Source: a virus. Taken from it: 31,734 nt of DNA. Under the pieces are notes generated by a model. It saw nothing but the letters and a program-made list of their open reading frames with translations, had not been told where the DNA came from and ran no database searches. Each line of letters opens with the position of its first letter. The stretch's first letter is position 1. Shown piece by piece: positions 3,039 through 31,734 of the stretch. A program made the position numbers and the translations under genes. Where the stretch lies: IMG/VR virus record IMGVR_UViG_3300017786_000072, positions 1-31,734 of that record. One strand, given 5' to 3'.

Positions 3039-4604
3039 ATGGAAAAAAGTGCAAAAAACAAATTCAGTAAAATCTTTGAGAAGTTAGAAGCTGAAGTTAA
3101 GAGAAATAAATCTCAGACAGTAGAACCTATTGTAGAGGAAGTTGTTGAAGAAGAAGTACAACTTTCTAAAAAAGAGGAAAAAGGTCTGGATTTGTTCTCT
3201 AGTCTTATGGAGTCTCTTTCAGACGATAATAAGAAAAAAGAAGAGTCAGAGATACAAGATGACCCAACTGATGATGTCGGTAAAGAAGTATCAGATTGGA
3301 TAAAGAAAGACGTTGAGAAGAATGATAAAAAGGTTGAAGCACTAGGAGAACTGTTCGCACCTTTAATTCCAGAAGATGAAAACTTTGAACCTGTAGTAGA
3401 AGAAACATCTGAGATACCAGATGAACTATTAAAAGAATTTCAAGAAAAACCAGTACAACCTAAGAAACCTAGACCAATCAAAAAAGCTATGATATCTGTG
3501 AAAGAACAGAAGTATATGTCTAATTTCTTAGATGAGATTGCAAAACTACCCCCAGAAGAAAAACCAGTTGATATGAGTGAACAAAGTTTTCCAAACTCTA
3601 TCAAGGATAGTCTACTTACCCCAGACGAAACATCATTACAAAGAAAAGTTGCACAACCAGATGATAGTCTTACTAGACTACGCAAAGAGTTTGAACAGTT
3701 TAGAACTGTTATGCAACGTAATCTTGAAGCAAAACAAAACGCATATGATGGTAACAGTGGTAGTGGTGCAGTTAAGATACAGGATATGGATGATGTTGAT
3801 ACAGACTCCGCTCTTGTAGATGGTAGAATTTTTAGATTTAACGCAACAAAAGGTAAGTTTGATGGTGTAGACCCAGAAACAGAAAATCTTATTACAGAAG
3901 ATGGAGATTTCCTTGCATTGGATGGAACTAACTCTGACCAAGATGATGCTGGTAGTCGTTTAGATTTAGAAGATGGTACGTTTGGTGGACTATCAACTTT
4001 TGCAGATAGTACAGTATTTAATGATGGACGAGTTCTTGCATACAAAGCCTCAACTGGTAAAGTCGAGGGTATAGTAAGAGTAACAGAAGCGATAGTTTTA
4101 GAAACAAACGAAAAGGTGTTGTTAGAGGGCACTGACTCAGATGGTGCAAACGAGGGTGATTTCTTTAACTTAGAAAATGATACTTTTGGTTCAGTTGGTT
4201 TTGATAATATTTCAGAGGACATAATACCAGACCAAAACAATGTAAGAAGTTTAGGTTCAAATGGTAAGAGATTTAAAGACTTATTCTTATCTGGACAAAC
4301 CATTGACTTAGGTGGTGCAACTATTTCTTCTGATGGTTCTGGTACAGTTACGATTTCCTCTGATGGTGTTACTCTACCTAGTGGTTCAAAGGTTGTTGAC
4401 GACAACATTGCGATTGCTGGAAGTAATGGTAAAACTTCAACTAGTGTTGAGTTTTTCAGTAGAGCTGGAGGAACATCAACGGCAAACGCAACATTTAAAT
4501 TTCAATCAAAGGGTCTTAGTTATGTTTTCACTGATGCTGGTTCATTTACATTGTCAGATGGAACTGCATTAGAAGACTCTAACCCAGAATTGTTTAGTTT
4601 TTAA
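3039..4604 (+). CDS. Virion structural protein with helical N-terminus and fibre-like C-terminus
   Basis: Two halves are visible. Residues 1-~235 are highly charged, Glu/Lys-rich and probably coiled coil (for example EEVVEEEVQL and the LRKEFEQFRTVMQRNL helix). From ~245 the protein turns into Gly/Asp/Ser beta modules, including two copies of the DGTD...LEDGT module (nt 3885-3999 and 4087-4203), then a fibre block containing DIIPDQNNVRSLGS, KRFKDLFLSG and GGATISSDGSG, which is typical of marine myophage fibre proteins. A late promoter and strong ribosome site precede it, and another fibre-type gene follows 13 bases on. It is probably a baseplate-attached fibre or whisker-like component; the exact T4 counterpart is unclear. 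Confidence 0.7.
   Translation: MEKSAKNKFSKIFEKLEAEVKRNKSQTVEPIVEEVVEEEVQLSKKEEKGLDLFSSLMESLSDDNKKKEESEIQDDPTDDVGKEVSDWIKKDVEKNDKKVEALGELFAPLIPEDENFEPVVEETSEIPDELLKEFQEKPVQPKKPRPIKKAMISVKEQKYMSNFLDEIAKLPPEEKPVDMSEQSFPNSIKDSLLTPDETSLQRKVAQPDDSLTRLRKEFEQFRTVMQRNLEAKQNAYDGNSGSGAVKIQDMDDVDTDSALVDGRIFRFNATKGKFDGVDPETENLITEDGDFLALDGTNSDQDDAGSRLDLEDGTFGGLSTFADSTVFNDGRVLAYKASTGKVEGIVRVTEAIVLETNEKVLLEGTDSDGANEGDFFNLENDTFGSVGFDNISEDIIPDQNNVRSLGSNGKRFKDLFLSGQTIDLGGATISSDGSGTVTISSDGVTLPSGSKVVDDNIAIAGSNGKTSTSVEFFSRAGGTSTANATFKFQSKGLSYVFTDAGSFTLSDGTALEDSNPELFSF
3885..3999 (+). repeat. DGTD/LED module, first copy in the structural protein
   Basis: Encodes LALDGTNSDQDDAG followed by LDLEDGTFGG. The Leu-x-x-Asp-Gly-Thr, Ala-Gly and Leu-Glu-Asp-Gly-Thr landmarks match copies in gp18 and the virion-like protein at 16507. 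Confidence 0.6.
4087..4203 (+). repeat. DGTD/LED module, second copy in the structural protein
   Basis: Encodes VLLEGTDSDGANEGD followed by NLENDTFGSVGF, a diverged copy of the module at 3885-3999 within the same gene. Confidence 0.5.
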
Positions 4605-4617
4605 AGGATAATAAGAT

Positions 4618-5385
4618 ATGGCAGATGCAGCTCCAATTAAAGCAGTTTTTAACGCAAGTAATGTTGCGACAGGTCTTGCAGAATTTCAAGCATCAGATAC
4701 AGTTGCACTTAGTAACGGAGGTCTGGGTGTCGCACTCACAATAGGAACTGCTGGTCAAGCACTTAAAGTTAATAGTGGTGGAACAGCGGTTGAGTTTGGA
4801 ACACCAACAGTACAAGGTACAGACTTATCTGGTTCGACACTTGCGAGTGGTATAACTGCATCAAGTCTTACGTCAGTTGGAACACTCACGACACTCACAG
4901 TAGATAATGTGATAATAAACGGAACTACGATAGGTCATACTGATGACACCGACTTGATGACACTTGCAAGTGGTACTCTCACAGTCGCTGGTGCTGTTAG
5001 TATATCTGGTGACTTGACTGTTTCTGGAACGACTGTAACCACAAATCAACAGGTGATAAATGTTACAGAAGCATTTGTATTTGAAGGTGCAACAGCAGAT
5101 TCAAATGAAACAACTTTTAGTATAGATGAACCTACTGCTGACAGAACAGTCGCATTACCAGATAAGACAGGAACAATAGAACTTTTAGATGGATTGATAC
5201 TAAATAGTACAGATGGTTCTGCAAACGCTGGTGATAACATAGTACAGAACACATCTGTAAATGAAAACGATAGAATACTACTTGAAGATGCAACCTCAGA
5301 TGTTTTATTAGTTCTTGCATCACATGGAATAACACTATCTGGTGTAGGATGGAATACATTCCAGTTTGATAATGATCACTCATAA
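4618..5385 (+). CDS. Tail fibre-like virion protein
   Basis: A 255-residue, Thr/Ser/Gly/Asp-rich protein with almost no Cys or aromatic clusters. It carries modules common in marine T4-like fibres: SLTSVGTLTTLTVDNVIING, then VSISGDLTVSGTTV and TTFSIDEPTADRTVALPDKTG, the last a block often seen near the tips of such fibres. The C-terminal third contains a version of the DGTD/LED module (LNSTDGSANAGDNIV...RILLEDATSD). The ribosome site is AAAGGA nine bases upstream, 13 bases after the previous fibre gene. It is likely co-transcribed with that gene from the late promoter at 3013 and into the neck genes. No enzymatic motif is seen. Confidence 0.65.
   Translation: MADAAPIKAVFNASNVATGLAEFQASDTVALSNGGLGVALTIGTAGQALKVNSGGTAVEFGTPTVQGTDLSGSTLASGITASSLTSVGTLTTLTVDNVIINGTTIGHTDDTDLMTLASGTLTVAGAVSISGDLTVSGTTVTTNQQVINVTEAFVFEGATADSNETTFSIDEPTADRTVALPDKTGTIELLDGLILNSTDGSANAGDNIVQNTSVNENDRILLEDATSDVLLVLASHGITLSGVGWNTFQFDNDHS
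5179..5310 (+). repeat. DGTD/LED module in the fibre-like protein
   Basis: Encodes LLDGLILNSTDGSANAGD and, after a short spacer, RILLEDATSD. The order of landmarks (Thr-Asp-Gly, Ala-Gly-Asp, Leu-Leu-Glu-Asp) is that of the other copies. Confidence 0.5.
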
Positions 5386-5396
5386 GGACTATTTAA

Positions 5397-6212
5397 ATGG
5401 CGATACCTACAACTAGGTCTACTTTTAAAGATTACTGTTTACGCAATCTTGGGTTTGGTGTTATTGATATCAATGTATCAGATGCACAAGTAGACGATAG
5501 AATAGATGAGGCACTACAGTACTTTGCACAATACCACTATGATGGTGTTGAGAAGATGTATTTAAAATACAAAATGACACAGGATGATATTGACAGAGCC
5601 GCAACAAACGACTCAACAACTGCAACAGATACAAAAGACGGAACTATATCTGCAACATTTCTAGAGGGTAAGAACTTTATACCCATGCCTCCTGCTGTTG
5701 TGTCGGTTTTACAAATATTTCCATTTGATGATGCGAACACAAATAATATGTTTGATATTCGTTATCAACTTAGACTTAATGACCTGTATGACTTTTCATC
5801 AACATCTATTCTACAATATCAAATGACAATGCAACAACTGGACTTTCTATCACACATATTGGTAGGAGAGAAACCAGTACGTTTTAATCAACACCAGAAC
5901 AGATTATATCTGGATATGGACTTTGCAAACGATATAGATGTGGGCGAACATCTTATCATAGAGTGTTACAGAAAGATAGATCCAGCATCTTATCCAGACA
6001 TCTTTGATGATATCTATCTCAAGAGATATACAACTGCACTTATCAAAAGACAATGGGGTGCGAACCTCTCTAAGTTTCAAGGAGTACAACTACTTGGTGG
6101 TGTTGAGATGAATGGTGCAGAGATATACTCACAAGCACAAGAAGAAATCAACAGATTAGAAGAACAGATACAACTTGCATTTGAACTACCACCAGAATAC
6201 ATGATGGGATAG
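5397..6212 (+). CDS. 13: Neck protein gp13
   Basis: Recognised as T4 gp13-like head-completion/neck protein. The N-terminus (TFKDYCLRNLGFGVIDINV, then DRIDEALQYFAQYHYDGVEKMYLK) is the conserved block of this family in marine myophages. At 271 residues it is slightly shorter than T4 gp13 (309). In T4, gp13 and gp14 form the collar that seals the filled head and receives the tail. The start at 5397 has AAGGA nine bases upstream. Immediately downstream lie gp14 and gp15 in the T4 order 13-14-15-16-17, which strongly supports the call. No unusual insertions are seen. Confidence 0.9.
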   Translation: MAIPTTRSTFKDYCLRNLGFGVIDINVSDAQVDDRIDEALQYFAQYHYDGVEKMYLKYKMTQDDIDRAATNDSTTATDTKDGTISATFLEGKNFIPMPPAVVSVLQIFPFDDANTNNMFDIRYQLRLNDLYDFSSTSILQYQMTMQQLDFLSHILVGEKPVRFNQHQNRLYLDMDFANDIDVGEHLIIECYRKIDPASYPDIFDDIYLKRYTTALIKRQWGANLSKFQGVQLLGGVEMNGAEIYSQAQEEINRLEEQIQLAFELPPEYMMG

Positions 6213-9162: not shown

Positions 9163-10798
9163 GTTCACATATCTAGGTAATCCAAACCTAAAAAAGGCGA
9201 ATGTTCAACAGGAGTGGACAAAGAAACAACTCCAAGAATACGCACGATGTATGGAAGACCCACTCTACTTCATACAAACCTATGTCAGAATTGTATCTCT
9301 AGACGAGGGTTTAATACCATTTAAGATGTACCCCTTCCAAAAGGAGATGGTGGGTACATTTCATAAAAATCGTTTTACAATCTGTAAGTTACCCAGACAG
9401 TCTGGTAAATCCACGACTATGATATCCTACCTACTACACTACTCACTTTTCAACCCAAGTGTTAATATAGCGATACTTGCAAACAAAGCTGCAACTGCAA
9501 GAGATTTGTTAGGACGACTGCAACTTGCATACGAACATCTACCGAAGTGGTTACAACAGGGAGTTATGTCATGGAACAAAGGTTCACTAGAATTGGAGAA
9601 TGGGTCTAAAATACTCGCTTCCTCCACTTCTGCGAGTGCTGTAAGGGGTGGAAGTTACAACATCATATTCTTAGACGAGTTTGCGTATGTACCATCAAAT
9701 GTTGCAGAACAATTCTTTAGTTCTGTGTATCCTACAATATCGTCTGGTAAGTCTACAAAGGTTATGATAGTTTCCACACCACATGGTATGAATATGTTCT
9801 ATAAACTCTGGACAGATGCAGAGGAGAAGAGGAACACTTATATACCAATAGAAGTGCATTGGAGTGAAGTGCCTGGTCGTGATGACAAGTGGAAACAAGA
9901 AACAATCGCAAATACAAGTGAACAACAGTTCCAAACAGAATTTGAATGTGAGTTTCTTGGTTCTATTGATACACTCATCACACCACGCAAACTTAGAACA
10001 CTTGCGTATAAGACACCACTACAGTCTAACGCTGGTCTGGAAATATACGAACAACCAAAAAAAGACCACACATACTTTATGGTTGCAGACGTATCAAGGG
10101 GAACTAAAAATGATTACTCTGCGTATATTGTTTTTGATGTAACACAAGTTCCTTATCGTGTAGTTGCAAAGTTTAGAGATAATGAAATCAAACCATTATT
10201 GTTTCCACAAAAAATATATCATGTTGCGAGAGCATACAATCTTGCGTTTGTTCTTATAGAGGTAAATGATATTGGAGAACAGGTTGCAAATGCAATGCAA
10301 TTTGACATGGAGTATGATAATCTAGTTATGGCATCTATGAGGGGTCGTGCTGGTCAAATCATGGGTGGTGGTTTCTCTGGTGGTAGAGCCCAGTTGGGTG
10401 TAAGAACTACTAAAGCAGTTAAGAAGATTGGGTGTTCTAATCTAAAACAACTATTAGAGAGTGATAAGATAATAGTTGAGGATTTTGACTGTATCAATGA
10501 ATTGTCTACATTTATAGTTAAAGGGTCATCCTTTGAAGCAGATGATGGTTGTAATGATGACTTAGTTGCGTGTATGTTTATATTTGGTTGGGCGACAGAC
10601 CAAACATATTTTAAAGAACTTACCAACAATGATGTGAGAGAACAAATGTTCAAAGACCAACAAGATCAACTAGAACAGGACATGGCCCCCTTTGGTTTCG
10701 TTGTAAACGGACTGGAAGATGAAAACATAGGTGAAATGGTTGACGAGTATGGTACTAAGTGGAATCCTATAGTAAGGAACTATAACTCTAACTGGTAA
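9149..10798 (+). CDS. 17: Terminase large subunit gp17 (packaging ATPase/nuclease)
   Basis: Full two-domain large terminase of 549 residues (T4: 610). Walker A is PRQSGKST at 82-89; Walker B is FLDEF at 174-178 with catalytic Glu177; the coupling motif STPHG follows. The C-terminal RNase H-fold nuclease shows its acidic triad as Asp314 (ADVSRG), Glu371 (IEVND) and Asp470/471 (NDDLVA). gp17 docks on the portal, hydrolyses ATP to pump DNA into the prohead and makes the headful cut. The start overlaps the oxygenase gene by 14 bases. The 3' end overlaps, tail to tail, a minus-strand gene ending at 10788. All key residues appear intact. Confidence 0.95.
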   Translation: MQTNEFTYLGNPNLKKANVQQEWTKKQLQEYARCMEDPLYFIQTYVRIVSLDEGLIPFKMYPFQKEMVGTFHKNRFTICKLPRQSGKSTTMISYLLHYSLFNPSVNIAILANKAATARDLLGRLQLAYEHLPKWLQQGVMSWNKGSLELENGSKILASSTSASAVRGGSYNIIFLDEFAYVPSNVAEQFFSSVYPTISSGKSTKVMIVSTPHGMNMFYKLWTDAEEKRNTYIPIEVHWSEVPGRDDKWKQETIANTSEQQFQTEFECEFLGSIDTLITPRKLRTLAYKTPLQSNAGLEIYEQPKKDHTYFMVADVSRGTKNDYSAYIVFDVTQVPYRVVAKFRDNEIKPLLFPQKIYHVARAYNLAFVLIEVNDIGEQVANAMQFDMEYDNLVMASMRGRAGQIMGGGFSGGRAQLGVRTTKAVKKIGCSNLKQLLESDKIIVEDFDCINELSTFIVKGSSFEADDGCNDDLVACMFIFGWATDQTYFKELTNNDVREQMFKDQQDQLEQDMAPFGFVVNGLEDENIGEMVDEYGTKWNPIVRNYNSNW

Positions 10799-11420
10799 CT
10801 CTAAAAGTTAAATTGCCGGATATAGTAATTCTATAGTCATTACTTGTGTAGAATGGATATACACCATGCACCTGTGATGATTTGAACATTATCATTTTTC
10901 CCTCATAACTTTTATCTACGTTTAGACTAACCAAATCTATACCGCCTGGATATCTATGGTCTGGTGAGAAAAATGCAAACTTTGATGCTTGTTTATTGTT
11001 CGCCTCCTTGAACATATCTTCCTCATCCTGTAGGTCATAGGGTATACTCATGAATATTACAAATGAAACAAACCCAGAGTGGGTGTGTAGTGGATTGAAC
11101 TCATGTTTCTTTTGATAGTTTACCCACAAGTTACTTAACATTATAGGTGCATTTTCATTTAACACAACCATTTCTCTCCATGATTGATATACGTTTCCAG
11201 TTGTGGAACAAGTTGCTAACCAACTTTCAAATTCTCCACTTCTATCTTTTATTTCATATTCTTCTGATAGTTGACCAGCGAGATTACTACGATAGTCTTT
11301 ACCATTTTTCTTTGCTTCAAGTGCAACATCTTTCAACCATTGGAATAGGGTTTCTGGAACTTCATTTCCAGAAACATTTAACTTATTTAAGTTATCTTGG
11401 TCAGTCATCCAATTACTCAT
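10788..11420 (-). CDS. 2OG-Fe(II) oxygenase-like protein (minus strand)
   Basis: A 210-residue protein read from the minus strand, converging on gp17 with an 11-base overlap. The block LSNLWVNYQ, then FNPLHTHSGFVSFVIFMSIP (His112, His114), a distal VHGVYP (His185) and YRITISGN (Arg197), matches the phage family of putative 2OG-Fe(II) oxygenases (PF13759-like) also represented by the gene at 22089 (NMWGN...HSHSNNFLSGVFYL). Substrate unknown. Upstream on the same strand, four bases away, lies a small zinc-ribbon gene; the two probably form one transcript. Orientation opposite to all neighbours suggests an inserted cassette. Confidence 0.75.
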   Translation of the reverse strand: MSNWMTDQDNLNKLNVSGNEVPETLFQWLKDVALEAKKNGKDYRSNLAGQLSEEYEIKDRSGEFESWLATCSTTGNVYQSWREMVVLNENAPIMLSNLWVNYQKKHEFNPLHTHSGFVSFVIFMSIPYDLQDEEDMFKEANNKQASKFAFFSPDHRYPGGIDLVSLNVDKSYEGKMIMFKSSQVHGVYPFYTSNDYRITISGNLTFRVTS

Positions 11421-13915: not shown

Positions 13916-14449
13916 ATGGCAAATATAGATGACTTTAAAGCAAACCTTATCGGTGGTGGTGCTCGTGCAAACCAATTTAGGGTAACTGTAACACCACCCT
14001 CTGGAATTGCAATAGGACTTGATGTAAGACGAGCATCATTCCTAGTGACTGCAAGTATCTTACCAGCATCAACACTTGGTGAGATTGCAGTTCCATTCAG
14101 AGGTCGAAACATCTATGTTTCTGGAGATAGACCAGCACCAGACGTATGGTCAACTACTTTCTACAATGATACAGACTTTATGATAAGAAATGCGATGGAA
14201 CTATGGCACAATGGTATTAACGACTTTGCAAATAATACTGGTGTTGTCAATCCATCTGATTATCAGACAGACTTATTTGTAGAACAGTTAGATAGAGATG
14301 ACACAATTCTGAAGACATACATCTTTAGAAATGCGTATCCTTTGACCATCGGTGATATTGCATTAAGTAGTGCAGAAGCTGGTGAGATAGAAACATTTGA
14401 AGTATCTTGGAGATACCAACACTACGAACCATCTGGCGTAAGTTTCTAA
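13916..14449 (+). CDS. 19: Tail tube protein gp19
   Basis: A 177-residue tail tube subunit (T4: 163). The beta-barrel signature is visible as NQFRVTVTPPSG, ASILPASTLGEIAVPFRGR and SGDRPAPDVWSTTFYND, followed by the helix IRNAMELWHNGINDF and a closing FEVSWRYQHYEPSGV. Hexameric rings of this protein form the DNA conduit inside the sheath. An AGGAGG ribosome site eight bases upstream is among the strongest in the window, consistent with high copy number. It lies two bases after gp18. A paralogous fold appears in the gene at 20606. Confidence 0.95.
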   Translation: MANIDDFKANLIGGGARANQFRVTVTPPSGIAIGLDVRRASFLVTASILPASTLGEIAVPFRGRNIYVSGDRPAPDVWSTTFYNDTDFMIRNAMELWHNGINDFANNTGVVNPSDYQTDLFVEQLDRDDTILKTYIFRNAYPLTIGDIALSSAEAGEIETFEVSWRYQHYEPSGVSF

Positions 14450-20605: not shown

Positions 20606-21193
20606 ATGGCAACACAATTCGGAATAAATAGACAACCAACTCAGTTAGACTATGCAAGTCCTACTCAGTTTAAGTTTAATATTGTTCAACTACCAAAAGT
20701 TGAATATTTTACGACTGCGTGTAATCTTCCAAGCATTACTCTTGCAGATGCAATATTTCCTACACCATTTACTGATATTCCTGTTATGGGGGATAAATTA
20801 ACATTTGACAATCTAATTATAAGTTTTATAGTAGATGAAAGTTTAGAAAACTATGTACAGTTACAGAATTGGTTGAGAGGTATAGGTTTTCCAAAGAATA
20901 GACAAGAGTTTAGTAATTTTAGAGGAGAAGAGTCCGTTACACCTATTGCGAAACAAGGTATTAGTAATGACATAGGTGATGTAAAACCAGCGACTTCATC
21001 AAGAGCTTTATTCGGAGATGCGACCCTTACAATACTTTCAAATAAAAATAATCCACTCGCAGAGGTTAGATTTAGAGATGTCTATCCAGCGTCATTAAGT
21101 GGACTAGAATACAATCAAAATGCAACTGATGTTGAATATCTTACTGCAACGTGTGATTTCAAATATACTTTGTATGACATTGTGACATTATAA
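20606..21193 (+). CDS. Second tail-tube-fold virion protein (gp19/gp54-like)
   Basis: A 195-residue protein whose landmarks run parallel to gp19 of this window: TQFKFNIVQLPK (gp19: NQFRVTVTPPSG), CNLPSITLADAIFPTPFTDI (ASILPASTLGEIAVPFRGR), GDKLTFDNLIISFIVDE (GDRPAPDVWSTTFYND), the helix YVQLQNWLRGIGF (AMELWHNGINDF) and VRFRDVYPASLSGLEY (YIFRNAYPLTIGDIAL). This suggests the same beta-barrel fold, as in tube initiators or tail completion proteins; T4 gp54 and gp48 are longer. No convincing ribosome site lies before the ATG. A gp3-type tail completion role is an alternative given its place between gp23 and uvsY. Confidence 0.7.
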   Translation: MATQFGINRQPTQLDYASPTQFKFNIVQLPKVEYFTTACNLPSITLADAIFPTPFTDIPVMGDKLTFDNLIISFIVDESLENYVQLQNWLRGIGFPKNRQEFSNFRGEESVTPIAKQGISNDIGDVKPATSSRALFGDATLTILSNKNNPLAEVRFRDVYPASLSGLEYNQNATDVEYLTATCDFKYTLYDIVTL

Positions 21194-21663: not shown

Positions 21664-22092
21664 ATGACGTTAGATGAATTGAAACTTCAAGTCAAAAAAG
21701 ACTTGGAGGTAGATGATGAAACACTCGACAAAGAGTCCTACAAAAATCAAGAACTTTACGCAAAATACCTAGACCACAAAACAAACTTTGAACTCCTATT
21801 GTATAAAGCAAAAGGCGACTACAAAGTTTTGTTTAGAGATAAGTGGGAGTATTATGGTGGTAAAGCAGATGCAAAAATTTATGTGACCAAACCATTTGAT
21901 CTAAAAGTTCTCAAGACTGATTTGAGTATATACATAGAGTCTGATGAAGAAATAATAAAACTAGAACACAAAATTGCATACCTTGAAACAACAATCAAAT
22001 ATATTGACGGAGTTTTGAGGTCGATACAAAGTCGTGGTTGGGATATTAAAAATGCGATTAGTTGGAAACAGTTTGAGGCTGGTATGATATGA
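21664..22092 (+). CDS. uvsY: Recombination mediator UvsY
   Basis: A 142-residue helical protein, the size of T4 UvsY (137). The pattern NFELLLYKAKGDYKVLFRDK followed by WEYYGGKADAKIY and IKLEHKIAYLETTIKYIDGV and ending in RGWDIKNAISWKQFEAGM is the recognisable UvsY signature. UvsY binds ssDNA covered by gp32 and loads the UvsX recombinase, starting recombination-dependent replication and repair. Its stop overlaps the start of the next gene by four bases (ATGA). UvsW follows after one inserted gene, preserving the T4 uvsY-uvsW neighbourhood. Confidence 0.88.
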   Translation: MTLDELKLQVKKDLEVDDETLDKESYKNQELYAKYLDHKTNFELLLYKAKGDYKVLFRDKWEYYGGKADAKIYVTKPFDLKVLKTDLSIYIESDEEIIKLEHKIAYLETTIKYIDGVLRSIQSRGWDIKNAISWKQFEAGMI

Positions 22093-22712
22093 GTATAGAA
22101 AGACACGATTTTTTCCCAACTTGTCTATACAGGTTCAAACATGAATTTAAAGACAACGAACTCAACCAAATGGTAAAACATATTGAGGACAATAGTTTAG
22201 TAGAAAAAAATAAACAGATGGTTAAGATAACAGGAAGTCAACCACAGAACGAATTGCATAAAATAGATACGTTTGCAAATCTAACTAAAACAATTACAGA
22301 TGTAACTAAAACTATCTTAGAAGAACAAGAGTACATGGGTGAGATAGAGATTACAAATATGTGGGGTAATATATTACGACCACAATCTCAAAGAGCTCAC
22401 GCACCACACTCACACTCAAACAATTTTTTATCTGGTGTCTTTTATCTAAAGACATCATCTGATACGTCACCGATACAATTCTTTGACCCAAGACCACAAT
22501 CAAGTGTATTCAAACCAAGAAAGAGTGGATTTAATAAACTTAACTCTGACATGGCCGAGTTTCAATCTGAAACTGGTTGGGGTGTGGTATTTCCATCTTG
22601 GTTGGTACATTGGGTGCCCGAAACAAAAGACGAAAGAATTAGTATTGCGTGGAATATAATAGTTCGTGGTGAATATGGTGAACCAAACACACTCCAAAAT
22701 GCACATATCTAA
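22089..22712 (+). CDS. 2OG-Fe(II) oxygenase-like protein between uvsY and uvsW
   Basis: A 207-residue member of the putative 2OG-Fe(II) oxygenase family (PF13759-like). Motifs are ITNMWGNILRP, HAPHSHSNNFLSGVFYLK (His107/His109), FFDPRP (Asp133), VFPSWLVHWVPE (His174) and Arg183 in DERISIAWNI, together a plausible Fe/2OG site. It shares block order with the minus-strand gene at 10788, so the two may be paralogues. Overlaps: four bases with uvsY and 14 with the preferred uvsW start. Substrate unknown; hydroxylation of phage or host protein is a guess. Confidence 0.8.
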   Translation: MSIERHDFFPTCLYRFKHEFKDNELNQMVKHIEDNSLVEKNKQMVKITGSQPQNELHKIDTFANLTKTITDVTKTILEEQEYMGEIEITNMWGNILRPQSQRAHAPHSHSNNFLSGVFYLKTSSDTSPIQFFDPRPQSSVFKPRKSGFNKLNSDMAEFQSETGWGVVFPSWLVHWVPETKDERISIAWNIIVRGEYGEPNTLQNAHI

Positions 22713-24671: not shown

Positions 24672-25223
24672 ATGGCAAGAGCTAAAAAGAAAAAACCCAG
24701 CGCACACTATGTTGACAATGCAAAGTTTTTAGAAGCGATGAAAGAATGGAAAGACCAATGTAAAGATGCAGAAGCTTCTGGTGATGATAAACCAAGAATA
24801 TCTAATTACATAGGTGAGTGTTTTCTCAAGATTGCAAACGGACTTTCTTATAGACCAAACTTTATCAATTACTCATATAGACAAGAAATGATATCAGATG
24901 GTATAGAAAACTGTCTGCAATATGTACATAACTTTGATCCAGAAAAATCCAAGAACCCCTTTTCATATTTTACCCAGATAATATATTTTGCATTTATTCG
25001 TAGAATACAAAAAGAAAAGAAGCAATCACACATAAAAAATAAGATGATAGAGAAAAGGTCATACGATACCTTTACAGTTATGGAGGGTGATGACACTCAA
25101 TATCAAGTAAGAGGTTTTGACCCAGACTTGATGTTACCAGATGAAGATGTATACAAACCCAAGAAGAAAGAAACCACAACAAAAACAAATGGATTAGAAA
25201 ACTTTATGGGGTCTGACGATTGA
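24672..25223 (+). CDS. 55: Late transcription sigma factor gp55
   Basis: A 183-residue T4 gp55-type sigma factor (T4: 185). The core region matches sigma region 2: FLKIANGLSYRPNFINYSYR, then DGIENCLQYVHNFDPEKSKN and PFSYFTQIIYFAFIRRIQKE. It directs host RNA polymerase to TATAAATA late promoters, several of which occur in this window. The N-terminus is Lys-rich and the C-terminus ends in a short polar tail (LENFMGSDD). AAAGGA lies seven bases before the ATG, and a sigma70-like promoter lies 38 bases upstream. The stop overlaps the TTG start of gp47. Confidence 0.95.
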   Translation: MARAKKKKPSAHYVDNAKFLEAMKEWKDQCKDAEASGDDKPRISNYIGECFLKIANGLSYRPNFINYSYRQEMISDGIENCLQYVHNFDPEKSKNPFSYFTQIIYFAFIRRIQKEKKQSHIKNKMIEKRSYDTFTVMEGDDTQYQVRGFDPDLMLPDEDVYKPKKKETTTKTNGLENFMGSDD

Positions 25224-26281
25224 AGATAGCTCTACTTACTGACACACACTTTGGTGCAAGAAACGACAATCTAAACTTTAACGATTATTTCTATGAGTTC
25301 TATGAGGGAGTATTCTTTCCTTATCTGCAACAAAACAATATTAAACATTGTATTCATCTTGGAGATTTGATGGATAGAAGAAAGTATGTGTCTTACAGAA
25401 TACTTAAAGATTTTAGAGAAAGATTTATACAACCATTTGTGCATCTAGAAATAGACTTACATATACTCGTAGGTAATCATGATATCTATTTTAGAAACAC
25501 TAATGATATAAACTCTCTAGAAGAATTACTAGGCAATAAACATAAAAATATACATTTATATTCAGAGGCACAAGAGGTAAACTTTGGTGGGTTTCCAATA
25601 CTGATGATGCCTTGGATAAATCCACAGAACGAAATATATTCTTTTGGTATGATGGACGAAACTAAAGCAGACATAATGATGAGTCACTTAGAGGTGGTTG
25701 GATTTGAAATGCATGGTGGTCACTTTTCTGAGTCTGGTTTTAACAAAGAACAGTTCAAACGATTTGATACCATATTTTCTGGACATTATCACAAGAAGTC
25801 AGATGATGGCCAGATATATTATCTTGGTACACCATATCAAATGACATGGAGTGATTATAACTGTCCAAAAGGTTTTCATGTGTTTGATACAGAAACAAGA
25901 GAACTAACACGAATAGTAAATCCACAAAAGATATTTGAAAAGATATACTATGATGATACAAAAGAAAACTATGATACTCATAATGTTAATCAGTACAGAA
26001 ACAAATATGTAAAACTTGTGGTAGTAAACAAAAATGATTTGTATAAGTTTGATAAATTTACAGACAAACTATTCAAAGCAGATTGTCATGAAGTAAAGAT
26101 AATAGAGGATTTTACAGACTTAGATGCAAATACAGTATCAGATGATATCGTAGAAAACACACAAGACACTATGACACTACTAGGAAAATACATTGATGAC
26201 CTAGATGTAAACCTAGATAAAAGTAAACTAAAAGGTGATGTATCAAAACTATATCACGAAGCACAAGATTTGGAACTGTGA
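25220..26281 (+). CDS. 47: Recombination nuclease subunit gp47 (SbcD/Mre11-like)
   Basis: A 353-residue calcineurin-like phosphoesterase (T4: 339). Metal-binding motifs in order: DTHFG (Asp8, His10), HLGDLMDRR, LVGNHD and SGHYHKK, with MMSHLEV between. With gp46 it forms the Mre11/Rad50-type complex that resects DNA ends for recombination-dependent replication. The start is a TTG that shares bases with the gp55 stop (TTGA); no in-frame ATG lies near, and the conserved strand KIALLTDTH begins immediately, so TTG is well supported. A weak GGGG site lies upstream. The C-terminal third is charged and presumably binds gp46. Confidence 0.95.
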   Translation: MKIALLTDTHFGARNDNLNFNDYFYEFYEGVFFPYLQQNNIKHCIHLGDLMDRRKYVSYRILKDFRERFIQPFVHLEIDLHILVGNHDIYFRNTNDINSLEELLGNKHKNIHLYSEAQEVNFGGFPILMMPWINPQNEIYSFGMMDETKADIMMSHLEVVGFEMHGGHFSESGFNKEQFKRFDTIFSGHYHKKSDDGQIYYLGTPYQMTWSDYNCPKGFHVFDTETRELTRIVNPQKIFEKIYYDDTKENYDTHNVNQYRNKYVKLVVVNKNDLYKFDKFTDKLFKADCHEVKIIEDFTDLDANTVSDDIVENTQDTMTLLGKYIDDLDVNLDKSKLKGDVSKLYHEAQDLEL

Positions 26282-26492: not shown

Positions 26493-26572
26493 ATAAAGAA
26501 GTAGTGATAACACATTTTATAATGTTTATACTTGGTTGTGTTACTATGTACATGATGGTAAACTATCTATGA
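26489..26572 (+). CDS. 27-residue membrane micropeptide overlapping the gp46 start
   Basis: A complete short frame, MNKEVVITHFIMFILGCVTM plus seven residues, forming a single hydrophobic helix. It overlaps the upstream 66-residue gene by ATGA and the gp46 start by ATGA, filling the gap exactly. That double overlap is the main argument for translation; a weak GGCGAT is the only ribosome-site candidate. It could be a small membrane peptide or only a coupling frame that carries ribosomes to gp46. Confidence 0.45.
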   Translation: MNKEVVITHFIMFILGCVTMYMMVNYL

Positions 26573-28281
26573 TAACATTTAAATATGCAAGGTGGAAAAA
26601 CTTTCTTTCCACAGGTAATACTTTCACAGAGATACAACTAGATAGAAGTCCTACGACACTTATCATAGGTGAGAATGGTGCTGGTAAATCTACGATATTA
26701 GATGTTCTATGTTTCGGTCTATTTGGTAAACCATTTAGAGGTATCAACAAAAATCAACTAGTCAACTCAATTAATAACTCATCAACAATGATAGAGATTG
26801 AGTTCTCTATCGGTACAAGAGATTACAAAGTTATTCGTGGTATCAAACCAAATAAGTTTGAGATATACCAGAATGGTAAGATGATGAACCAAGAGGCAAA
26901 CGTCAGAGATTACCAGAGAATACTAGAACAACAAATACTCAAACTTAACTATCGGTCATTTACACAAGTTGTGATACTTGGTAGTTCAACATTTGTACCT
27001 TTTATGCAACTCAAGGCCACACACAGACGAGAGGTCGTAGAGGAGATACTTGATATCAAAATATTCTCTGTGATGAACTTACTTGCAAGACAACAACTCA
27101 AAAGTCTTTCTGATGAAATCCGTGAGGTGGATTATGAATATGATATTACTTCTGAAAAGATACAACTACAAGAAAACTTTATTGAAGACATTAAGAAAAA
27201 CAAAGATACTATTATAGAAGAAAAACAAACTACCATATCTAAGAATGATGAACAGATATCAGAAAGAGGTATATCGAAGATGGGCTTTGAAACAGAGGTT
27301 GAACTATTACTAGAAGAGATGTCTGATGAAAAATCTACGATAGATAAACGAGATAGACTCAAAGATATGCAGTTCTCTATCAAAGATAAACACCATCGTG
27401 GGTCAACACTCATACAGTTCTTTGAAGATAATGATGATTGTCCTACTTGTGAACAACATATAGATGAAGAGTTCAAAAGAAAAAGTATAGAGAGTAAAAG
27501 TGTAGAGGTTGAAGAACTATCTAAAGGCTTACAAAAAATGTCAGATGAGATGACTAAGATTGAAACTCAGATAAAAGAGTTTACCACAAAATCCAAACAG
27601 ATACAAAGACATCGTGTCGAGATTGGAAAACTTGCAAGTAGTATTACTGAACTACAAAAGTTCAATGACAAGTTGCAATGGGATATCGAAGCATTAGAAA
27701 AAGGTAATGTGAGTGATGTAGACACAGAGAAACTCAGAAACCTTAAAGAAGTATTTGCAAAGATAGATGACCAGAGAAAAGGTTTGAAAGAAGAGAAAAC
27801 CTATGTAGATGCGATTAGGTCGATACTACAAGACACAGGCATCAAGACAAAGATAATCAAACAGTATTTACCCATAATGAATAAACTGATAAATACATAC
27901 TTGACATCTATGGAGTTCTACGTCAACTTCACACTTAATGAAAACTTTGAGGAAACTATCAAGTCAAGGTTTCGTGATGAGTTTACCTACTCATCATTTA
28001 GTGAGGGTGAGAAGATGCGTATTGACCTTGCATTACTTTTTACATGGAGAGCTATTGCAAAGATGAAAAACTCTGCGAATACAAATCTACTAATACTTGA
28101 TGAGATATTCGATAGTTCACTAGACGGAACAGGAACGGATGAGTTCCTAAAAATACTCAATACACTAGGTGGTGAGAATGTATTTGTGATTAGTCATAAA
28201 CAAGATGCACTCGCAGATAAGTTTAAAGAAACCATTCGATTTGTAAAAGAAAAGAATTTTAGTCATATATCAAATGGGTAA
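26569..28281 (+). CDS. 46: Recombination nuclease ATPase subunit gp46 (SbcC/Rad50-like)
   Basis: A 570-residue SMC-type ATPase (T4: 560). The start MITFKYARWKNFLS at 26569 is preferred over an in-frame ATG 33 bases upstream because it matches the family N-terminus. Walker A is GENGAGKST (34-42); the coiled-coil arms flank a zinc hook CPTC (Cys291, Cys294); the signature YSSFSEGEKMRIDLAL and Walker B NLLILDEIFD follow. With gp47 it processes DNA ends. The start overlaps the micropeptide stop, and the end overlaps the methyltransferase-like gene by eight bases. Confidence 0.96.
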   Translation: MITFKYARWKNFLSTGNTFTEIQLDRSPTTLIIGENGAGKSTILDVLCFGLFGKPFRGINKNQLVNSINNSSTMIEIEFSIGTRDYKVIRGIKPNKFEIYQNGKMMNQEANVRDYQRILEQQILKLNYRSFTQVVILGSSTFVPFMQLKATHRREVVEEILDIKIFSVMNLLARQQLKSLSDEIREVDYEYDITSEKIQLQENFIEDIKKNKDTIIEEKQTTISKNDEQISERGISKMGFETEVELLLEEMSDEKSTIDKRDRLKDMQFSIKDKHHRGSTLIQFFEDNDDCPTCEQHIDEEFKRKSIESKSVEVEELSKGLQKMSDEMTKIETQIKEFTTKSKQIQRHRVEIGKLASSITELQKFNDKLQWDIEALEKGNVSDVDTEKLRNLKEVFAKIDDQRKGLKEEKTYVDAIRSILQDTGIKTKIIKQYLPIMNKLINTYLTSMEFYVNFTLNENFEETIKSRFRDEFTYSSFSEGEKMRIDLALLFTWRAIAKMKNSANTNLLILDEIFDSSLDGTGTDEFLKILNTLGGENVFVISHKQDALADKFKETIRFVKEKNFSHISNG

Positions 28282-28795
28282 AAGAAGTGATTTTGAAAGA
28301 GTAGAAAGAGATTTCTATCCAACACCATATAAAGCAGTAGAACCTTTACTACCACATTTACCAGAGAGTTTTACTTTTGCAGAGCCTTGTGCTGGTGATG
28401 GAAGATTAATTAGTCACTTGTTAAAAAATGGTGGTAATATTAGATATGCATTTGATATTGAACCTATGCACGAATGGGTAACATATGGTGATGCATTATC
28501 TAAAGGGTATACACAATGTGATTACATTATCACCAATCCGCCATGGAATCGCAAAATTTTACACCCCATGATAGAACACTTTGTTGATTTTAAACCGACA
28601 TGGTTATTATTTGATGCAGATTGGATGCATACAAAACAATCAATTCCTTATATAAAATACCTTATTAAAATTGTGAGTATTGGTAGAGTTAAGTGGATTG
28701 AGGATAGCTCTGGTGTTGGTAAAGATAATTGTTGTTGGTATCTCTTTAATAAAAATAAAAGTGAAGAAATTAAGTTTGTAGGCAGAAATATTTAA
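28274..28795 (+). CDS. DNA N6-adenine methyltransferase-like protein
   Basis: A 173-residue class I SAM-dependent methyltransferase. Motif I is FAEPCAGDG (35-43) and the catalytic motif IV is NPPW (88-91), with DFYPTPYKAV near the N-terminus, a common opening in phage adenine methyltransferases. NPPW is a DPPY-type motif used for amino-group methylation of adenine or cytosine. No target-recognition domain is obvious in so small a protein, and no restriction nuclease gene is nearby, so an orphan methylase is likely. It overlaps gp46 by eight bases and ends before a sigma70-like promoter. Confidence 0.8.
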   Translation: MGKRSDFERVERDFYPTPYKAVEPLLPHLPESFTFAEPCAGDGRLISHLLKNGGNIRYAFDIEPMHEWVTYGDALSKGYTQCDYIITNPPWNRKILHPMIEHFVDFKPTWLLFDADWMHTKQSIPYIKYLIKIVSIGRVKWIEDSSGVGKDNCCWYLFNKNKSEEIKFVGRNI

Positions 28796-28863: not shown

Positions 28864-31221
28864 ATGACACAAACATTTACAAAAGACAATACAGTTCTTG
28901 CGAAATTGTTCGCAGAAGAAGATATTCACGTTGTTCATAAACAGGCACATACTGCTTCGTTCAATGTCAAGAAACGTGAGTTAGTTTTACCAATACTAAA
29001 ATATATGTCAAAAGACATTCAAGACCTTATGACACTTCATGAGGTCGGTCATGCATTTTGGACTACGTTAGATATGCTAACAGAGTCGCAAACTAGAAAG
29101 ATACATCATACTATTGTGAATATCCTAGAAGATGTTCGAATAGAGAAAATGATACAAGATAAGTACAAGGGTTCTAAGGTAGTTTTTAAAAGAGGTTATC
29201 AAGAGTTAATCAAGAATAACTTCTTTGAAACTTATGGTAAAGATATCAACTCTTACAATCTTATTGATAAGATAAACCTACACTTCAAACATCACGAAAA
29301 TGTTGAGTTCTCTGATGATGAAATGGTGTGGGTCGAAAAGGCTAACGCAACAAAGACTTGTGCAGATGTTTTAGATCTTGCAGAGGAGTTGCACACATTT
29401 ATGAAAGAACAACAAGAGTCACAAGAGACAATGACCGATATGAGTGCCATGTCTGCACCTAGTGATGGTGAGTCTAGTGATGATGGTATGGGTGATGGTG
29501 AGGACTCTGGTGAACAAGAAATGAAAGAGATGCTTCAAGATCCTTTCACTTCACCTACAGAGTCAGAAGAGTCTGAGGGTTCGGAGTCTGGTGAGTCTGA
29601 GTCAGAGAGTTCAGATAGTTCTGATACTACTGATGGTGAGTCTGATGAGAGTTCAGAAGAAAAATCAGATGGTTCTGATGGTGAAGAAACTGAAGATACC
29701 ACTGATGAGAAAACCACAAGTTCAGATATTACAAACTCTATTCAAAGAGAGGGTGGTTCTGGTGGTGAGGCTCCAGAGATTAGAGGTCTTACTGATGATG
29801 CAAGTTACAACTCAACTCAAAAGATGAGAGATAAAGAGATTGAAGAAATTCAATATGCAAGTATTCCAAAGATTGATTTGAAAAACGTGATAGTAGATTA
29901 CAAAACAGTTATGAATGTTTTCAACAAAGCATATTCAAAACCAAGTGGTAACTCCGAACAGAGATACATCGACTCAAATCTACAAGAGTTAAATGACCAC
30001 TTCAAAGATAATAAAAAAGTTATCTCATACATGGTAAAAGAATTTGAGATGAAGAAAGCTGCAGACCAATATGCAAGGGCGTCAGTTTCAAAAACTGGAA
30101 CTTTGGATATGGGTCGGTTACATACTTACAAGTACAATGATGACCTATTCAGAAAAGTGACTACGTTGCCTGGTGCAACAAATCATGGTCTAGTTCTTTT
30201 CCTAGATTGGTCTGGTTCAATGGCTTGGAACTTGACAAACACACTCAAGCAGTTATTCAACATTATACATTTCTGCAATAGAGTAAAAGTTCCTTTTGAG
30301 GTTTATGCATTTTCTACTGAGTGGGTATATGCTGACAAATATTCAAAAATCAAAGATTTACCTAAACTACAAAAGTTCAAAGTTGGTGATTTGAAGATTT
30401 CAGAAACTACAAGATTGTTGAATATGTTATCAAGTAATATGACTAAAAATGAACAGAATAAAATGATGCACAATCTTTTAATGTTCTCAAACTCTATGGT
30501 TCGATATAGAGATTGGACATCAAAAGGATATCCTATTTATCCAGAGCGATGCACTCGACTTGGTGGTACTCCACTGAATGATACGATTGTATGTGCGATG
30601 GACATAGTTCCACAGTTCAAGAAAAACACTGGTGTTCAGAAAGTTCACTCAATATTCCTTACTGATGGTGATAGTGTTAATATCAATACTAAGTTTGATA
30701 TAGTTAGAAAAAGAGATGACGAGTATGGCGAGGGTACTGCTGGTTTTAGAAGTTATGGTAACTCAGTTTATACTGACCCTGTTACAAACAATCGACTAAC
30801 TGATATAACTCAAGATTCTAGAAATTGGACAAGAAATGACCAGACCATCTCATTACTCAAGTTACTCAAGAAAAGAGTTGATGGTATGAACGTGGTTGGT
30901 TTCTTTGTTGCAAACTCTACAAAAGGTGGTAACATTCCAAAAGATATTATTGAGAGTAAGTTTGGTATCAACAAGTTTCAAGATTGGGTCAAGTTCAAGT
31001 CAATAGTAGATGAAGTTAAAAAGACTAATGTTGCAGTTTGCACAACTGAGGGATATGACGAGTTCTACATAGTGCCTGGTCAAGTTCCAGAAACATCTGA
31101 CGAGTTAGATGTTGAAGTCGGTGCAAACAAAGGTGCATTGAAGAGAGCATTTATGAAATCTGCAAATAACAGAATGAAAGCAAAACCCATGTTAAATAAA
31201 TTTATTTCAATGGTTGCATAA
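28864..31221 (+). CDS. CobT-like VWA protein with an N-terminal HExxH metalloprotease motif
   Basis: A 785-residue, three-part protein. Residues 1-~190 are helical and contain HEVGH (59-63), with an acidic pair at 89-90 in NILEDVRIE that could give the third zinc ligand, as in gluzincin-like proteases. Residues ~195-295 are an extreme Ser/Glu/Asp linker. From ~440 a von Willebrand A domain shows an intact MIDAS: DWSGS (448-452), a Thr in GGTPLND and LTDGD. Bacterial CobT has a similar plan (VWA after an acidic linker) and works with the AAA+ protein CobS in cobalt chelation; a CobS-like gene follows here. As I recall, CobT lacks HExxH, so proteolysis or protein remodelling is an alternative role. 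Own sigma70-like promoter. Confidence 0.8.
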   Translation: MTQTFTKDNTVLAKLFAEEDIHVVHKQAHTASFNVKKRELVLPILKYMSKDIQDLMTLHEVGHAFWTTLDMLTESQTRKIHHTIVNILEDVRIEKMIQDKYKGSKVVFKRGYQELIKNNFFETYGKDINSYNLIDKINLHFKHHENVEFSDDEMVWVEKANATKTCADVLDLAEELHTFMKEQQESQETMTDMSAMSAPSDGESSDDGMGDGEDSGEQEMKEMLQDPFTSPTESEESEGSESGESESESSDSSDTTDGESDESSEEKSDGSDGEETEDTTDEKTTSSDITNSIQREGGSGGEAPEIRGLTDDASYNSTQKMRDKEIEEIQYASIPKIDLKNVIVDYKTVMNVFNKAYSKPSGNSEQRYIDSNLQELNDHFKDNKKVISYMVKEFEMKKAADQYARASVSKTGTLDMGRLHTYKYNDDLFRKVTTLPGATNHGLVLFLDWSGSMAWNLTNTLKQLFNIIHFCNRVKVPFEVYAFSTEWVYADKYSKIKDLPKLQKFKVGDLKISETTRLLNMLSSNMTKNEQNKMMHNLLMFSNSMVRYRDWTSKGYPIYPERCTRLGGTPLNDTIVCAMDIVPQFKKNTGVQKVHSIFLTDGDSVNINTKFDIVRKRDDEYGEGTAGFRSYGNSVYTDPVTNNRLTDITQDSRNWTRNDQTISLLKLLKKRVDGMNVVGFFVANSTKGGNIPKDIIESKFGINKFQDWVKFKSIVDEVKKTNVAVCTTEGYDEFYIVPGQVPETSDELDVEVGANKGALKRAFMKSANNRMKAKPMLNKFISMVA
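29450..29735 (+). repeat. Ser/Glu/Asp-coding low-complexity linker
   Basis: Repeated TCTGAG, TCAGAG and GATGGT codon pairs encode an acidic linker (for example SEGSESGESESESSDSSDTT) between the HExxH domain and the VWA domain. Similar acidic linkers occur in CobT and ChlD/BchD. Confidence 0.7.
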
Positions 31222-31227
31222 AAAGAC

Positions 31228-31256
31228 TTGACTTTTGAAACGAATCATGGTAGCTT
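31228..31256 (+). promoter_or_regulatory. Sigma70-like promoter of the CobS-like gene
   Basis: TTGACT at 31228-31233, 17-base spacer, TAGCTT at 31251-31256 with TGG just upstream (extended -10). The -10 is weak (3 of 6). It lies in the 72-base gap after the VWA gene. Confidence 0.55.
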
Positions 31257-31293
31257 GTATGTATAGTGAGAATTTAATTAGAGAGGTTATATT

Positions 31294-31734
31294 ATGTATT
31301 TTTCACCACAAAAACAAAAGTTTATTGATGCCGCTGTCGATATGTTCGGTGATGGTGTCGTTCTAGATAAACAAGGTGTTCGTGACGCTTCTGTGAAAGC
31401 AGGAGTTCCACTCGCTGGTTGGTTTATGAAAACCTATAAAGTAGGTTACAATCAGTTCAAACTTCCGTCTGAAACACAAAGTGTTGTTCAGACTAATGTA
31501 GTATCAGAACCAGAAGTTCAGACTACAGTAAACTTAGTGGCAACCAATATGGAATCACAAAATTTAGTTCCTAGTGCATTCGAAGGTTTTGTGCCTTGGG
31601 GTCATCACTCGACAATCAAACAGATTGTAAAGTCTGGTTTGTTCTATCCTGTGTTTGTTACAGGTTTGTCTGGTAATGGTAAAACTCTGATGATCGAACA
31701 GATTCATGCAGAGATGAAAAAAGAACTCATTAGA
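31294..31734 (+). CDS. CobS-like AAA+ ATPase (3' end missing)
   Basis: The frame starts at MYFSPQKQKFIDAAV, with GAGAGG eight bases upstream, and is still open after 147 codons at the window edge. Residues 1-~60 form a small helical domain. After a Gln/Val/Thr linker, FVPWGHHSTIKQIVKSGLFY is a typical entry to the AAA+ core, and GLSGNGKT is a clear Walker A. This matches the MoxR/CobS branch of AAA+ proteins, annotated as CobS in many marine T4-like phages. Such ATPases act with VWA-domain partners, and the preceding gene encodes one. Walker B, sensor and arginine-finger residues lie beyond the window. Confidence 0.85.
   Translation, partial: MYFSPQKQKFIDAAVDMFGDGVVLDKQGVRDASVKAGVPLAGWFMKTYKVGYNQFKLPSETQSVVQTNVVSEPEVQTTVNLVATNMESQNLVPSAFEGFVPWGHHSTIKQIVKSGLFYPVFVTGLSGNGKTLMIEQIHAEMKKELIR

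Follow-up and report, generated by a model that had tools for sequence, protein, structure and literature searches.

The window (the whole 31.7-kb stretch of a virus record analysed here) carries T4-like genes for terminase, sheath, tube, portal, prohead protease, scaffold and major capsid protein, together with genes for UvsY, helicase, late sigma factor and gp47-like and gp46-like proteins. Toward its end lie a gene that encodes a metallopeptidase-type HExxH motif and a VWA domain (hereafter, the HExxH-VWA protein) and a gene for a CobS-like ATPase (Table 1). A preliminary description of this DNA had reported an HEVGH motif, a downstream Glu-Asp within NILEDVRIE, a long acidic linker, a complete MIDAS and a CobS-like Walker A protein next door, and all of these were found in the sequence. 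The MIDAS comprises DWSGS (residues 448–452), T569 and D601 (i.e., D448, S450, S452, T569, and D601), and the Walker A motif of the CobS-like protein (GLSGNGKT, 31663–31686) is present in a reading frame that is cut at the window end. Elsewhere in the window, there are two 2OG-Fe(II) oxygenase family genes (phrog_81; 10788–11420 on the minus strand and 22089–22712 on the plus strand) and two tail-tube-like paralogues (phrog_45), one beside the sheath gene (13916–14449) and one beside the capsid gene (20606–21193).

Table 1 Features of the HExxH-VWA/CobS-like locus and its upstream neighbours (positions in the window).
Feature	Position	Strand	Residues	Remark
gp47-like SbcD/Mre11 subunit	25220–26281	+		Context
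gp46-like SbcC/Rad50 recombination nuclease subunit	26536–28281	+		Context
DNA methyltransferase-like protein (phrog_799)	28274–28795	+		Between gp46 and the HExxH-VWA gene
HExxH-VWA protein (phrog_459 'peptidase')	28864–31221	+	785 aa	N-terminal zincin-like domain, acidic linker, C-terminal VWA
N-terminal zincin-like domain	28891–29409	+	about 10–182	AlphaFold2 model, fold matches
HEVGH	29038–29052	+	59–63	H59, E60, H63
NILEDVRIE	29119–29145	+	86–94	N86, E89, D90, R92, E94
Candidate third metal ligand	29131–29133 or 29128–29130	+	D90 or E89	
Acidic Ser/Asp/Glu-rich linker	29410–29772	+	about 183–303 (121 residues)	Predicted disordered
VWA domain	30178–31218	+	about 439–785	
CobS-like MoxR/AAA+ ATPase (phrog_249)	31294–31734	+	first 147 within the window	Cut at the window end

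The phrog_459 profile matches the HExxH-VWA protein over its full length (E-value 2.2e-188, residues 10–785), placing it in the same family as the GenBank 'peptidase' of T4-like cyanophages (Kyanoviridae). The motif itself is thus not new, given that the gene already bears this label; in the literature searched, we found neither a published mechanism for the phrog_459 'peptidase' nor an experimental study of the HExxH-VWA protein. Searches of Pfam, NCBIfam and PDB sequences with the window protein yielded no usable family (Pfam gave no match at all), and the PDB sequence search detected no relation of the N-domain to minigluzincins or other zincins. The neighbouring phrog_249 is described as 'porphyrin biosynthesis', and intact relatives of the CobS-like protein carry AAA_5. 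The linker is rich in acidic and small residues (34% D+E, 44% S+T+G, 3% K+R) and is disordered in the AlphaFold2 model of the full protein.

Because a fold search with the full-length model was dominated by the VWA domain, the N-domain was also folded alone (pLDDT 89). Both AlphaFold2 models place HExxH in a helix (residues 50–66) and N86, E89, D90, and E94 in a second helix (residues 82–100), accompanied by beta strands. Among the best matches of a blind PDB fold search with the N-domain were jannalysin, abylysin and selecase (minigluzincins), ArdC and PprI/IrrE, and further matches included BepA, BlaR1 and SPRTN/Wss1-type entries. Most of the matches are HExxH metallopeptidase folds; the zincins named share with the model the HExxH helix, a beta-strand frame and a next helix with an acidic residue, with each single match lying under the secure level of the tool (Z ≤ 7.0; Foldseek E ≥ 0.13). 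For example, ArdC of plasmid R388 was matched with Z 6.7 (123 aligned residues, rmsd 4.2). For the VWA model, NorD within NorQD (Z 15.6, 254 residues aligned, rmsd 7.5) and the human midasin MIDAS domain (Z 15.6, 214 residues aligned, rmsd 3.2) were among the best matches. As in the phage pair, NorQD, RavA-ViaA and midasin combine a VWA fold and MIDAS with an adjoining MoxR-type ATPase. Among the zincins matched by the N-domain, we know of none that has a fused VWA domain together with a MoxR ATPase partner. Proteins with DUF2201_N (PF13203, 'putative metallopeptidase domain') have, like the phage protein, such a domain ahead of a VWA-like domain; there was no Pfam match to this family, however, and hhalign gave no significant match to the single PF13203 example compared, which itself lacks HExxH.

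Relatives of the HExxH-VWA protein were found by tblastn in 463 of 50,697 phage records, and those of the CobS-like protein in 461 records of the same phage groups. Carriers are nearly all cyanophages, with additional phages of Pelagibacter, Stenotrophomonas, Pseudoalteromonas and Ochrobactrum; among T4-like marine cyanophages, the gene pair is near-universal and is usually labelled as vitamin B12 genes. To determine if the motif is conserved, as the preliminary description had proposed to check, relatives were fetched from viral contigs with patterns that excluded HExxH. All 77 relatives that cover the region carry it (four more end before the region), showing that the motif is not a chance occurrence, and its position ahead of the LEDVRIE segment was likewise confirmed in the window protein. 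Among 19 diverse relatives with identities down to 21%, H59, E60, H63, N86, E89, D90, R92, and I93 are invariant. N86, E89, D90, R92, and E94 are also invariant in a 61-row alignment, which has independent weight only for these residues since its rows were pre-filtered for HExxH. The five MIDAS residues are invariant in both alignments. The Ochrobactrum phage protein (21% identical) reads HESAH...NVCEDVRID, and Pseudoalteromonas phage XG4 has HEVSH...NIVEDIRIE on a reading frame separate from the VWA domain. In XG4 (3676–5936), the order is VWA, HExxH domain and CobS, with a disrupted CobS frame; a sequencing error is possible, as the record carries an UNVERIFIED tag.

The module extends beyond these phages. 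One query returned 1769 records of large plasmids, most of them conjugative and including IncC and IncHI1B types, in which the genes are arranged as AAA+/DUF3150/VWA. HExxH and the Asp are kept in all 11 plasmid proteins picked regardless of motif, in three genome-contig proteins that were picked with the motif, and in the phages SSU5 (Salmonella), RHEph10 (Rhizobium), CRP-810 (Roseobacter), HVTV-1 (haloarchaea), ICP2 (Vibrio) and GTE7 (Gordonia). D90 is retained in every mobile-element version examined, including ICP2 and a Shewanella plasmid, which have Val and Asp, respectively, at the E89 position. Stenotrophomonas phage ANB28 (2891–4876) retains both genes and an ED-R-type segment but has DREVST in place of HExxH, apparently an independent loss of the site as judged by sequence, and this implies that the machine can act without it at least once.

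The CobS-like gene lies directly downstream of the HExxH-VWA gene in 77 of 94 testable loci, and in most exceptions it is slightly further off or on the opposite side. Among T4-like phages, the pair sits between gp46 (or a methyltransferase adjoining gp46) and gp45 or hsp20 (e.g., S-PM2, HTVC008M of Pelagibacter, and the Ochrobactrum phage). On plasmids, the module adjoins Bet/RecT and exonuclease genes (IncC and others) or a toprim protein, and in SSU5, RHEph10 and ANB28 it lies near DNA ligase or DNA polymerase genes. Distant carriers (T4-like phages, plasmids, and SSU5, RHEph10 and ANB28) thus have recombination or replication genes as their shared neighbours, which suggests that substrates of the pair are located on or near replicating or recombining DNA. 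Many metagenome-assembled contigs labelled Chloroflexi, Flavobacteriales, Euryarchaeota and others also contain the T4-like gp47-gp46-VWA-CobS-gp45 block, and these appear to be phage sequences that were binned with bacterial or archaeal genomes.

The phage pair resembles CobT (PF06213/PF11775) and CobS in the combination of AAA+ and VWA proteins, the acidic linker and an N-domain homology that is established stepwise. The window protein differs from CobT in two respects: it has no match to PF06213 or PF11775, the homology being distant and bridged, and it has HExxH plus NxxED instead of the CobT signature RGxxD-AxALR...HHDxxxH. Compared directly as profiles, the phage N-domain and CobT gave no significant match (E-value about 0.04), and a second direct alignment (nonsignificant and gapped) would put HExxH near the CobT HHDxxxH. 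As the match of the window protein to CobT is weak, the homology rests on bridging proteins: those of SSU5, CRP-810, Methylomicrobium and IncC pass the Pfam CobT cut-off (PF06213), and all four carry HExxH, with the first three (not the IncC protein) also passing the CobT_C cut-off. An HMM built only from alphaproteobacterial CobT aligns its RGeaDaiALrlrhHd segment to RGYVDHEAGHVRHSD of CRP-810 and to RGFLDHEVAHILFTD of SSU5, ungapped across RGxxD, which places HExxH at the CobT A-x-A-L-R. Through these proteins, the N-domain is, by sequence comparison, homologous to CobT, and its EDxRxE segment corresponds to EQARxE. A CobT search of viral contigs returned only proteins with a CobT-type VWA half.

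The statement in the preliminary description that CobT lacks HExxH proved correct: none of 27 CobT sequences has His at either His position, Glu at the Glu position or Asp at the D90 position (Gln, Thr or Leu occurs there), whereas 26 of the 27 retain residues equivalent to E89 and E94. The joint absence of both His residues, the Glu and D90 is what a lost metal site would be expected to show, and it suggests D90 as the third ligand. The proposed 'Glu/Asp around 89–90' can accordingly be narrowed; the acidic pair does lie on the next long helix in the models, and D90 is the likelier ligand of the putative zinc site, because it is kept in all mobile-element versions and lost together with HExxH in CobT, which retains the E89 equivalent. 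In a CobS tree (unrooted, no outgroup, long branches), canonical CobS forms one clade next to the HExxH-bearing CRP-810, followed by SSU5/RHEph10/ANB28. CobT looks like a relative of the phage protein without the zinc-protease-type site, and the likely direction of change is site loss in CobT.

These results bear on the published view of phage CobST as a true cobaltochelatase motor that takes over host CobN to raise cobalamin production, in which the cyanophage cobT was called "mistakenly annotated as a peptidase" (PMC8651126). The homology of the bridging proteins to CobT agrees with this proposal. The function of phage cobS has been described as uncertain (PMC11288001). The absence of a CobN-like gene from view was borne out on a broader scale, with CobN (PF02514) found in none of 10 complete carriers of the pair and in two of 50,697 phage records. 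A member of PF02514, a family that also takes in Mg-chelatase H subunits, is encoded by Synechococcus elongatus. Cyanobacteria have CobN without cobS or cobT (PMC9227772), making a host partner for cyanophages conceivable. The gene context of the pair is nevertheless DNA metabolism rather than cobalamin, and phage proteins have the HExxH/Asp site that CobT lacks. Hosts of phages and plasmids with the pair also include enterobacteria and Pelagibacter, for which corrin-ring synthesis by the CobN route is not known. A chelatase role of the phage pair is weakened and appears improbable, with host CobN being in principle present for cyanophages. The suggestion that the pair is mislabelled as cobalamin biosynthesis holds in part: the N-domain is homologous to CobT, and the same phage proteins were already labelled 'peptidase' in GenBank and PHROGs. 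The data favour a peptidase-type reading of the N-domain with the CobT relationship upheld, and the statement on the peptidase label in PMC8651126, which contradicts what is a label only, needs revisiting. Among 41 alphaproteobacterial genomes with CobT (PF06213; the sampled genomes may be incomplete), 20 lack a CobN/BchH-type protein (PF02514), and Caulobacter vibrioides, the control, has CobT but lacks CobN; in cells as well, CobST may function without CobN.

HExxH motifs can have non-proteolytic roles, and the pair might instead be a metal-insertion or protein-maturation chaperone in which HExxH carries or senses metal without cleavage, similar to NorQD. NorD is among the closest VWA folds, CobT itself is a chelatase subunit, and NorQD inserts iron (PMC13036017). 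However, E60 is as invariant as both His residues, for which a pure metal carrier has no obvious need, and the descriptions of NorD consulted mention no HExxH site or N-terminal HExxH domain; we consider such a chaperone unlikely. A protease that serves host takeover or counters host defence, similar to the antirestriction protein ArdC of plasmids, would fit the presence of the module in both lytic phages and conjugative plasmids, and ArdC of R388 ranks high among the fold matches of the N-domain. This match is modest, though, and the syntenic position within a T4-like replication/recombination block points to a role in replication more than to a variable defence locus, leaving anti-defence with a similarly low probability.

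The explanation that we consider fairly probable is a MoxR-type AAA+ ring with a VWA partner that bears an intact zincin-type site (HExxH plus Asp) and cleaves its substrate. The conserved zinc-protease-type site, absent from true CobT, supports the idea that the pair is probably an ATP-driven protein-cutting or protein-remodelling machine near DNA replication. The ATP-driven metalloprotease or remodelling machine envisaged in the preliminary description is thus supported in part, by the conserved HExxH and acidic residue, the predicted zincin-like fold and the MoxR/VWA-type pairing; zinc binding, cleavage, ATP coupling and a DNA-linked substrate are what we infer. In such a machine, the VWA domain would bind the AAA+ hexamer in the way that NorD docks on NorQ, with the long acidic linker tethering the N-domain. 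ATP-driven movement would present or remodel a protein substrate, and the N-terminal zinc site would cut or trim the substrate presented by the ring. Cooperation of an ATP-driven MoxR ring with a VWA arm has been shown for NorQD (PMC13036017). The weakest step is the DNA-linked role, with substrates on or near replicating or recombining DNA, which we regard as quite possible.

Within the literature searched, the combination of a zincin-type site, a MoxR/VWA motor, CobT homology with concerted absence of the site, and a recombination/replication context appears to be new. More tentatively, and with some doubt, phages and conjugative plasmids may carry widespread AAA+-driven zinc proteases acting at replicating or recombining DNA, from which CobST would have been derived by loss of the zinc site, and the cyanophage 'cobS' would not be a vitamin B12 gene. 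The cyanophage core gene cobS is among those that the literature treats as auxiliary metabolic genes for vitamin B12. Should its partner prove to be a zinc protease, and should the two act on proteins close to DNA, this much-quoted example of phage-modified host metabolism would need rewriting. Given the related module on more than 1,700 plasmid records, its function also bears on plasmid biology, and this scenario, if true, would indicate how a protease-type machine gave rise to a metal-inserting chelatase motor.
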